Source of the DNA: Hufsiella ginkgonis | GTDB lineage: Bacteria > Bacteroidota > Bacteroidia > Sphingobacteriales > Sphingobacteriaceae | Direction of reading: 5' to 3' | Assembly: GCF_009834915.1 (NCBI RefSeq) | Contig: NZ_WVHS01000001.1 | Coordinates: 1,488,001-1,552,000 of the forward strand | DNA length: 64,000 nucleotides | Part shown: piece after piece, positions 45,326 through 63,158 of the stretch | Layout: every line of letters begins with the position of its first letter | Numbering within the stretch: position 1 is the first letter of the stretch | Program-made: the position numbers and the translations under genes | Notes under the pieces: model-generated | What the model was told of the DNA's origin: nothing | Database searches by the model: none | Seen by the model: only the letters and a program-made list of their open reading frames with translations

Positions 45326-45330
45326 AATAG

Positions 45331-45429
45331 CGTTGGCTGATAGCTGTTGGCTGATAGCTGATAGCTTTGATTCAACCCTAAATATAAGAAATATACTCAT
45401 ACCGGGTATTCACAAGCCAACAGCCGGTA
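45331..45429. repeat. Heptad-repeat array, inverted pair
   Basis: Five 7-base units from 45331 to 45365 (CGTTGGC, TGATAGC, TGTTGGC, TGATAGC, TGATAGC) and two opposite-facing units at 45416-45429 (GCCAACA, GCCGGTA) flank a 50-base AT-rich core. GCTGTTGGCT in the first arm is complementary to AGCCAACAGC in the second. It fills the gap between the amidohydrolase and the lipoprotein genes. Confidence 0.75.
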
Positions 45430-55494: not shown

Positions 55495-56166
55495 TTGAAA
55501 ACACTAATAGTCGCTGCTACATTACCTGAAATTTCGCCGCTAATGGCATCCATGGCCCTCAACGAAGGTGTTAATAACTACCGGGAGCATGTAGTGTATG
55601 TGTTAATAACTGGTGTGGGGATGGTGGCGACAGCTTATGCATTAGGATATCACCTGGGCAATTTTAAATACGACCTCGCCATTAACCTGGGTATCGCAGG
55701 CAGTTTCGACAGGTCGATCGCGTTAGGAGAAGTGGTCCATGTAACACGAGATCATTTCGCTGAACTTGGCGCCGAAGATGGCGATGGATTCCTAACGATA
55801 GATGAGTTAGGGTTTGGCGCGTCGGCGGTCAGCCATCAGCTATCAGCCGTCAGCAGCCAGTTATCAGCCGGCAGTCGTGAGCCGGATATTCGAACGGTAA
55901 CAGGGATCACGGTAAACCGGGTCCACGGAAACGTGCACTCCATTGAGGCTACTGTTAGCAGGCTCGCGCCGCATACCGAAAGCATGGAAGGTGCGGCCTT
56001 TTTTTACGCCTGTAATTCGGCGGCGGTCCCGGCTATGCAGCTCAGGTCGATATCAAATTACGTGGAACGCCGCAACCGCGAAGCCTGGAATATAGGTCTG
56101 GCCATCAAAAATCTCAATATCTTTGCGGAGAAATTTATTACGGACCTATTAAAAGCCGGCAGCTAA
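55495..56166 (+). CDS. mqnB: Futalosine hydrolase
   Basis: Nucleosidase of the PNP/MTAN fold (223 aa) that releases hypoxanthine from futalosine to give dehypoxanthine futalosine, in menaquinone synthesis. The TTG start at 55495 is kept because MKTLIVAATLPEI matches the expected family N-terminus. Motifs: LITGVGMVATAYALG, INLGIAGSFDRSIALGEVVHV, DHFAELGAEDGDGF, VNRVHGN and SMEGAAFFYAC (catalytic Glu region). A stretch of about 19 residues (SAVSHQLSAVSSQLS and following) before RTVTGITVNRVHGN is encoded by a heptad-repeat array. The stop codon overlaps another small array. mqnD follows after 22 bases. Confidence 0.92.
   Translation: MKTLIVAATLPEISPLMASMALNEGVNNYREHVVYVLITGVGMVATAYALGYHLGNFKYDLAINLGIAGSFDRSIALGEVVHVTRDHFAELGAEDGDGFLTIDELGFGASAVSHQLSAVSSQLSAGSREPDIRTVTGITVNRVHGNVHSIEATVSRLAPHTESMEGAAFFYACNSAAVPAMQLRSISNYVERRNREAWNIGLAIKNLNIFAEKFITDLLKAGS
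55825..55880. repeat. Heptad-repeat array inside mqnB
   Basis: Eight in-phase 7-base units: GCGGTCA, GCCATCA, GCTATCA, GCCGTCA, GCAGCCA, GTTATCA, GCCGGCA, GTCGTGA. These share units (GCCGTCA, GCTATCA-like) with the arrays at 54301 and 62614. The length of 56 bases is not a multiple of three, so gain or loss of one unit would shift the frame. Confidence 0.85.
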
Positions 56167-56184
56167 TGGCTGATGGCTAGCCGC
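56164..56184. repeat. Short heptad array at the mqnB stop
   Basis: TAATGGC, TGATGGC and TAGCCGC, in the orientation opposite to the array inside mqnB. The first unit contains the mqnB stop codon TAA and the array ends 4 bases before the mqnD start. Confidence 0.6.
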
Positions 56185-56188
56185 TACC

Positions 56189-57040
56189 ATGAAACTAACA
56201 CTCGGTTTTTCGCCCTGCCCCAACGATACGTTTATTTTTGATGCCCTTATACACCACAAGATAGATACCGAAGGCCTCGACTTTGAAGTATATTTCGACG
56301 ATGTGGAAACTCTCAACCAAAAGGCCTTTCGCGGTGAGCTAGATATCACTAAGCTCAGCTTCCATGCCTTTGCCTACGTAGCCGGCCGGTACGTGCTGCT
56401 CGATTCGGGTAGTGCACTGGGTTTTGGGGTGGGCCCGCTGCTTATTTCAGCCAACGGCGATCGGCCTTCGGCCATCAGCTCTTTAACGGTAGGTATCCCC
56501 GGCAAATATACCACGGCCAATTTCCTGCTTAGCCTGGCCTACCCGGAGCTGCAGAACAAGAAAGAAATGATTTTCTCGGATATCGAGAACGCCCTGCTCC
56601 GGGGGGAGATAGACCTTGGCCTCATCATCCACGAGAATAGATTCACCTACCAGCAAAAAGGATTGAAAAAGATCGTGGATCTTGGCAAGTTCTGGGAAGA
56701 CGAAACCGGCTGTGCCATCCCGCTGGGCGGCATCGTGGTGAAACGCGGCCTCCCGGAAGAAGTAAAACATAAAGTGAACCGCGTGCTTCGCAGGAGCGTG
56801 GAGTTCGCCTTCGCTAACCCAAAGTCGGGGATCGGCTTCATCCGCGCGCATGCACAGGAGATGGAGGAGGCGGTAATGTACCAGCACATCGAACTGTATG
56901 TAAACCAGTATTCGCTCGACCTGGGAGCAGAAGGCCGCAATGCCGTCAACCTGCTGTTTGAAAAAGCGGCGGAAAAAAAAGTGATCCCCCAAATAAATAA
57001 AAACCTATTTTTAACCGACCTAAACGTCCAGTCACTATGA
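56189..57040 (+). CDS. mqnD: 1,4-dihydroxy-6-naphthoate synthase
   Basis: Enzyme (283 aa) of the futalosine route that turns cyclic dehypoxanthine futalosine into 1,4-dihydroxy-6-naphthoate; its fold is that of periplasmic binding proteins but it is cytoplasmic. Motifs: LGFSPCPNDTFIFDALIHHKI (4-24), the substrate-binding KLSFHAFAYV, GPLLISANG, GKYTTANFLLSLAYPE, LGLIIHENRFTYQQKGL with the catalytic His, and PLGGIVVKRGL. It overlaps the next gene by an ATGA. Coupling with mqnB places two menaquinone steps in one unit. Confidence 0.95.
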   Translation: MKLTLGFSPCPNDTFIFDALIHHKIDTEGLDFEVYFDDVETLNQKAFRGELDITKLSFHAFAYVAGRYVLLDSGSALGFGVGPLLISANGDRPSAISSLTVGIPGKYTTANFLLSLAYPELQNKKEMIFSDIENALLRGEIDLGLIIHENRFTYQQKGLKKIVDLGKFWEDETGCAIPLGGIVVKRGLPEEVKHKVNRVLRRSVEFAFANPKSGIGFIRAHAQEMEEAVMYQHIELYVNQYSLDLGAEGRNAVNLLFEKAAEKKVIPQINKNLFLTDLNVQSL

Positions 57041-60730: not shown

Positions 60731-60844
60731 GTGATCAGTGATCAGTGGTCAGTGATCAGTACTGCACAGCGCCGTCCGTGGTGGCTGAAACCTTATCTCT
60801 TACACAAATCCAAAACTGATCACTGACAACTGATCACTGACAAC
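60731..60844. repeat. Inverted pair of heptad arrays (30-bp arms, 54-bp core)
   Basis: The left arm, 60731-60760, has four heptads (GTGATCA twice, GTGGTCA, GTGATCA). The right arm, 60815-60844, has TGATCAC and TGACAAC alternating twice after AC. The right arm in reverse complement matches the left at 27 of 30 positions. The 54-base core between them has no coding sense. The element ends 3 bases before the ABC transporter start codon. Confidence 0.85.
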
Positions 60845-62614: not shown

Positions 62615-62683
62615 CCGTTGGCGATCGGCGATCAGCCGTCAGCAATCAGCGATCAGCCGTCAGCTATTAGTCGTCGGCGATCG
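62614..62683. repeat. Ten-unit heptad-repeat array at the ends of two convergent genes
   Basis: Ten units of exactly 7 bases, all starting with G: GCCGTTG, GCGATCG, GCGATCA, GCCGTCA, GCAATCA, GCGATCA, GCCGTCA, GCTATTA, GTCGTCG, GCGATCG. The array starts on the last base of the ABC exporter stop codon and includes the stop codon and last four codons (PIADD area) of the acetyltransferase gene on the other strand. Confidence 0.9.
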
Positions 62684-63158
62684 GCTTTCTCATTACATAA
62701 TCATTTAACTCGAACTGGTAATACGCAATATCTACCGTCTGATAGATCTCAAAGCCCAGTTTCCGGTAAAATCCCCGGGCCGGGTTGTCGCGCTTAACGT
62801 TCAGCTCGAGGATTTTCGCCCCGGCGGATCTCGCTAGGTCTTCTATATGGCCGATCAGCGCTTTCCCGCTTCCTTTTCCCTGTTCGGAGGGCAGCAGGTA
62901 GATCTTGTGAAGCTTGTAAACCTCCGGTTCGGTGAGGGAACAGCCGGCGAAGGCTACAGGTTGGCCGTCGCGTTCCCCGATAAGGAAAGTTATTTCGTCA
63001 AACTGCGCCGTAAGCGCGTCTTCGGAGTACATGTTCTCCAGCATAAAGCGGAGTTGTTCGGCCGGCATCAGCTGCCGGTAAGTAGCGGGCCAGATCTCGG
63101 CGGCAAGCCGGTGGATAACCGGAACGTCGGAAAGGGTGGCGGGGCGTATACGGATCAT
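62667..63158 (-). CDS. GNAT-family N-acetyltransferase
   Basis: Cytoplasmic acetyltransferase (163 aa). The acetyl-CoA-binding motif is seen in LHKIYLLPSEQGKGSGKALIGHI (about 85-108) with the Q-x-x-G-x-G/S core, followed by ILELNVKRDNPARGFYRKLGFEI. Substrate unknown. Its start overlaps the upstream gene's stop by ATGA, so it is coupled to the thiamine pyrophosphokinase-like gene. The final residues ADD and stop codon are made from a heptad repeat, so the natural C-terminus may have been replaced by repeat insertion. Confidence 0.92.
   Translation of the reverse strand: MIRIRPATLSDVPVIHRLAAEIWPATYRQLMPAEQLRFMLENMYSEDALTAQFDEITFLIGERDGQPVAFAGCSLTEPEVYKLHKIYLLPSEQGKGSGKALIGHIEDLARSAGAKILELNVKRDNPARGFYRKLGFEIYQTVDIAYYQFELNDYVMRKPIADD

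Follow-up and report, generated by a model that had tools for sequence, protein, structure and literature searches.

In-frame heptad repeats in a variable loop of futalosine hydrolase from Hufsiella ginkgonis, with a probable origin in a lineage-specific repeat family

Results and Discussion

The futalosine hydrolase gene (mqnB) of Hufsiella ginkgonis contains nine degenerate TCAGYNN units in its reading frame (63 bp, 21 codons). This array probably reflects the spread of a mostly intergenic heptad repeat family (TCAGYNN, or NNRCTGA in reverse) into permissive protein loops, a process that would be lineage-specific and near-neutral. The array keeps the coding frame, is unique among the mqnB loci compared and lies where the enzyme varies most and where its structural model has the lowest confidence, and a matching array is found in truA. 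The features discussed below are listed in Table 1; the window is the whole stretch of 64,000 nucleotides that was analysed.

Table 1. Features of the window, with positions counted from its first nucleotide.
Feature	Position	Strand	Remarks
Heptad array	45327..45366	-	Directly 5' of M20 peptidase gene
mqnB, futalosine hydrolase	55495..56166	+	223 aa, TTG start; TIGR03664, PF01048
Length-variable block GAED...VNRVHG of MqnB	55768..55929	+	Contains the array; 54 aa here
Heptad array in mqnB	55822..55884	+	Nine in-frame TCAGYNN units; encodes SAVSHQLSAVSSQLSAGSREP
Possible weak reverse-strand heptads	56160..56190	-	Overlap mqnB stop codon and mqnB-mqnD gap; found by eye
mqnD-like menaquinone biosynthesis gene	56189..57040	+	Directly downstream of mqnB; PF02621, 246 bits
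Convergent array pair between two genes	60735..60840	.	TCAGT arm 60735-60762 (+), arm 60813-60840 (-); long hairpin
Heptad array	62625..62687	+	Just past ABC transporter gene

The heptad array in mqnB

The ORF that carries the array scores 176.9 bits against TIGR03664, above the cut-off of 124.7, and is thus a member of the MqnB family. The closest named matches of mqnB come from a Sphingobacteriaceae MAG, Hufsiella arboris and Mucilaginibacter, which places its relatives in the Sphingobacteriaceae; the nearest of them is 62 % identical. The source genome (G000) measures 5.2 Mb in 25 contigs and is 99.99 % complete.

The nine units read, in order, TCGGCGG, TCAGCCA, TCAGCTA, TCAGCCG, TCAGCAG, CCAGTTA, TCAGCCG, GCAGTCG and TGAGCCG. 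The TCAGY core is exact in five of them and has a one-base mismatch in the remaining four. Adjacent units are never identical and have 3-6 of their 7 bases in common. The exact TAACTGA unit is absent as a unit type from mqnB, where the units consist of TCAGC and two variable bases; TCAGTTA units are present in other arrays of the genome. An earlier reading, made from the sequence alone, had placed heptads in the mqnB coding frame upstream of the VNRVHGN motif. The unit register, the TRF calls (55829-55854 with period 7 and 55828-55874 with period 21) and the TIGR03664 match all confirm this, and the peptide encoded there is SAVSHQLSAVSSQLSAGSREP. The same reading had counted eight heptads over 56 bp (55825-55880); that segment does lie inside the array, but the full array has nine units and its 63 bp are divisible by three. 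The array as a whole is therefore frame-neutral, whereas a single unit is not. The array is open in two forward frames, one of them the frame in use, and stops interrupt each of the three reverse frames.

The window contains five period-7 runs at least as strong as the mqnB array (16/21 matches), and no such run appeared in any of 20 Markov simulations. When the codon order of mqnB was shuffled, none of 5000 sequences reached three consecutive exact units, where four are observed. Synonymous shuffles, in which the protein was held fixed, gave at least four consecutive exact units in 16 of 5000 cases. As shuffling so rarely recreates the heptads, the repeat belongs to the DNA level and does not simply follow from the peptide.

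The array occupies a variable loop

To compare this region between relatives, the block from GAED to VNRVHG was taken from 110 mqnB loci. Two were dropped where the anchors were missing, and 98 distinct loci were measured, the window's own included. The length of the block ranged from 43 to 59 aa with a median of 49; five loci are longer than that of the window and 92 are shorter. The window's loop exceeds the median by just 5 aa, within the range of the 98 loci, and so shows no sign of a clean insertion. The block sequences are unrelated between many of the relatives. Only the window's locus has at least three TCAGY motifs in the block (five); of the remaining 97 loci, one has two and the others have at most one.

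An AlphaFold2 model, run on a 42-sequence alignment, had a mean pLDDT of 91.5, falling to 73 for residues 111-120 and to 55 for residues 121-130. The array corresponds to residues 110-130, the lowest-confidence part of the model. The modelled protein resembles MTAN/futalosine hydrolase structures, with TM scores (query) of 0.70-0.81 among the 50 matches listed. The array fills or replaces a freely varying loop and is not a clean 56- or 63-bp insertion; it could have arisen within a pre-existing loop. The insertion proposed in the sequence-only reading is thus unsupported as a clean event, given a loop length that varies in relatives. That reading had named two findings that would speak against it. 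One was unrelated sequence of the same length, lacking the repeat, in relatives, and this holds in half, with blocks that are unrelated and of similar length. The other was an absence of arrays elsewhere in the genome, where the repeat is in fact genome-wide. Its suggestion that the repeat had spread into a tolerant loop is borne out by the genome-wide repeat, the uniqueness of the array among mqnB loci, the variable loop with low pLDDT and the truA case described below.

The heptad family is genome-wide and mostly intergenic

A three-unit TCAGC pattern, TCAGCNNTCAGCNNTCAGC, had 86 + 53 = 139 matches in the genome and none in the reversed control. The corresponding figures for a four-unit TCAGY pattern were 247 and one. 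At least one three-unit match was found in 24 of 151 genomes of the family, the own genome included; next to its 139, the highest number was 32. All sites from the two patterns were read on contig C1, the largest, together with a chosen set on other contigs. Contig C1 contains 40 array clusters, 39 of which are not inside an ORF of at least 130 aa; the one that is inside lies in mqnB. Among the 25 further clusters chosen on other contigs, two lie inside ORFs, namely truA and an ORF without a family match, which is regarded as spurious. These arrays have the properties of heptamer repeats: tandem 7-bp units with a TCAGT or TCAGC core, many loci per genome and a mostly intergenic location.

Two candidates for a third in-gene array were set aside. 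A 187-aa ORF without a Pfam match (L204) has its array between two plus-strand ORFs and was treated as intergenic. At L203/L247, a glycosyltransferase ORF has the array at its N-terminal edge, ahead of the Pfam match, which makes the start of this ORF doubtful. No in-gene arrays were seen in four chosen frames of other genomes.

The arrays on C1 tend to lie at gene borders: 34 of 64 are at most 15 bp from an ORF border or overlap it, and 52 of 64 read away from the nearest border, while the remaining 12 do not. A REP/RAYT origin of the heptads was rejected, as the genome has no match to the Y1 transposase (PF01797), which was found in 5 of 14 control genomes. A search of the window against Rfam at the gathering score gave no match.

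A second in-frame array in truA

The truA gene carries about 19 heptads between FDLE and NALLP (L207:1416-1548, corresponding to G000:C12:999815-999947), all in a single orientation. Its identity is supported by a TIGR00071 score of 155.7 bits (cut-off 142.85). The linker block of TruA from GRTDTG to ALLPFEI measures 79 aa here, compared to 38-55 aa in 28 of 29 other aligned loci, whose linkers are shorter by 24-41 aa, and 67 aa in the last. This 67-aa linker (G002) contains a different repeat with a period of 7/14, GAGCGGAGAACGGG, at the same place (L212:1741-1774). A change by one or two units in the truA array results in a truncated protein, and a change by three does not. The heptad-encoded peptide period of MqnB recurs in this unrelated protein. 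The truA array is a clearer insertion than that of mqnB, and it supports the entry of such repeats into permissive loops.

We propose that the heptad family multiplied in this lineage, mostly in the gaps between genes, and that one copy came to occupy a surface loop of MqnB that would tolerate almost any sequence. The array may have grown as heptad DNA was duplicated in tandem or copied by template switching, and all variants with a broken frame, stops or impaired folding would have been lost to selection. Within genes, stops on the reverse strand are likely to make the TCAGY orientation the only tolerated one. The mqnB segment presumably has little or no function of its own, although an altered function of MqnB is possible as far as sequence shows. 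This shows a route by which non-triplet repeat DNA can enter housekeeping enzymes and persist in them, through a stop-free strand and loops that were already variable. With two in-frame cases in one genome and a different repeat in the truA linker of a relative, the idea that permissive loops act as sinks for repeat DNA can now be tested.

Alternative origins of the mqnB array

The intergenic convergent pairs that hug gene borders are more surprising than the mqnB array itself. In each of the 23 C1 clusters with arrays on both strands, and in nine clusters elsewhere, the left arm is of the TCAGY form and the right arm of the reverse form; these counts include some copies of a 188-bp element described below. 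There is one longer +-+- cluster besides, and the opposite order opens no cluster. The arrays of the other 17 of the 40 C1 clusters are on one strand only. Eight chosen pairs were folded and all eight formed strong hairpins (z -3.8 to -8.4), with none of 200 shuffles as stable. Compact pairs have a common core near TTCCTTTATGGCGCC (11 sites picked by eye). Covariation in the core alignment is weak, with changes on both sides in 2 of 9 pairs, and the core therefore rests on sequence likeness in these 11 sites. No convergent heptad pairs are reported in the portions consulted of the open-licence literature on Bacteroidetes heptads, palindromes, the unit or the peptide. A tentative alternative is that the heptads are the arms of an undescribed dispersed hairpin element, (TCAGYNN)n followed by a core near TTCCTTTATGGCGCC in compact copies and by (NNRCTGA)n, with a location at gene borders, a fixed convergent orientation and a genome-wide spread. 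The mqnB and truA arrays might then be single arms that entered the reading frames of these housekeeping enzymes and were retained there as domesticated, disordered loops.

A dispersed element of 188 bp was also seen, with the ends GGATCAAGCT...AGCCTGATCC and internal heptad arms (L141-L160, e.g., G000:C1:57222-57409). It has 18 copies with 83-100 % identity across most of its length. Perfect 8-bp flanking duplications, the mark of a transposed MITE, are present in 6 of 20 examined copies.

In a related explanation, a palindromic or MITE-like element landed in mqnB in the fashion of a Rickettsia palindromic element, and the array is what was left of one arm after decay. Numerous intergenic arrays are indeed arms of inverted pairs, the 188-bp element with its flanking duplications combines heptad arms with signs of transposition, and weak reverse heptads are found at the mqnB stop. 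However, mqnB has neither the end sequence of the 188-bp element nor a second strong arm, and the truA array has a single orientation only. Both in-frame cases are one-orientation arrays rather than palindromic elements, and the reverse heptads near the mqnB stop amount to only one exact and one near unit. We therefore consider this origin improbable.

Under ordinary divergence, a variable loop would have drifted to a sequence rich in Ser, Gln and Ala, and the peptide would account for the heptads. This explanation agrees with the free divergence of the loop in all relatives and with a loop length here within their range. It is nevertheless very unlikely, as heptads of the same consensus occur throughout the genome, the four consecutive exact units are kept in just 16 of the 5000 synonymous shuffles and the same peptide period is found in the unrelated TruA.

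The sequence-only reading had further raised a potential switch. As a phase switch of the kind of the neuO heptanucleotide tract in E. coli K1, slippage by one heptad would toggle MqnB, and hence menaquinone synthesis. The point of that reading that slippage by one unit would shift the frame is correct: changes by -2, -1, +1 or +2 units were computed to truncate the protein at 123-139 aa, and +3 or -3 keeps the frame. A coding heptad switch also has a precedent in neuO, as described in the part consulted of PMC13001214. However, the mqnB array lies mid-gene and lacks the identical, slippage-prone neighbouring units of phase-variable tracts, whereas neuO has a single heptanucleotide repeated in 3-53 copies according to the same source. 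Perfect arrays of 13 and 15 units exist elsewhere in the genome, unlike in mqnB, and truA, which bears a similar array, is likewise a housekeeping gene.

The genome encodes four PF01048 proteins, of which MqnB alone scores above the futalosine hydrolase cut-off. The best models for the other three are purine nucleoside phosphorylase, AMP nucleosidase and uridine phosphorylase, the last below its cut-off. No second futalosine hydrolase or MTAN above the cut-off was found among them, and no MenD above the cut-off was found in the genome (best score 63.3 against a cut-off of 244.2 bits). Judged by the PF01048 proteins and MenD, a backup enzyme and the classical menaquinone pathway thus appear to be missing. 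As MqnB is the sole futalosine hydrolase above the cut-off and MenD falls below its own, an 'off' state should stop menaquinone synthesis. Given that each unit differs from its neighbours and that neither a backup enzyme nor another pathway was found, a switch at mqnB is very unlikely; rare slippage is possible.

The two perfect arrays mentioned above (L184:1472-1562 and L205:1421-1525) consist of 13 and 15 TCAGCTA units, respectively, each followed by near-identical sequence. These are the best places in the genome to seek slippage.

Comparison with known heptad repeats

Spread of a heptad family into permissive loops, the origin that we favour, can be compared to several known systems, described here from the portions consulted of each paper. 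Heptad repeats of the TAACTGA/TCAGTTA kind are already known, including cases within ORFs, and the mqnB and truA arrays add to this kind. Direct repeats of this type occur in Beggiatoaceae, Cyanobacteria and some Bacteroidetes (MacGregor 2015, PMC4679880) and are the closest to those found here. Their core is nearly the same (TCAGT TA versus TCAGY NN), they are mostly intergenic and near gene borders, and inside ORFs the stop-free strand is used. Their peptide LSVISYQ has the period and frame of the SAVSHQL kind found here, and their in-ORF cases are likewise mostly outside functional regions. Unlike in that system, two of the seven bases vary freely here, a single genome has mid-gene arrays in two housekeeping genes and convergent pairs are frequent, whereas one indirect repeat is reported there for the main genome.

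GGGAATC and related heptamers of Xanthomonas and Nostoc (Rehm 2015, PMC4692102) follow a similar rule as to the side of the gene, but they are G-rich and form quadruplexes, while the present unit has no G tract. In neuO (PMC13001214), as in mqnB, heptads lie in the coding frame and only changes of three keep this frame. However, neuO is a phage cargo gene with copies of a single heptanucleotide in its 5' region, whereas the mqnB array is degenerate and mid-gene with no visible backup. Rickettsia palindromic elements (reviewed in PMC10969869) also place repeat DNA in frame within metabolic genes, but these are palindromic elements of ~150 bp, in contrast to the one-orientation heptad arrays of mqnB and truA. 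Geobacter metallireducens has tandem heptanucleotide elements (PMC2700814), of which one kind, MTYCTGA, is CTGA-cored and another occurs within genes as well as between them. They differ in consensus and phylum from those found here and were proposed to be regulator binding sites or RNA elements. The open-licence literature, as far as it was covered, contains no report of heptads in mqnB or truA.

The window itself holds one further array with a possible coding role. Upstream of the M20 peptidase start (45327-45400), the frame is open through the array, which could extend the N-terminus ahead of a likely signal peptide.
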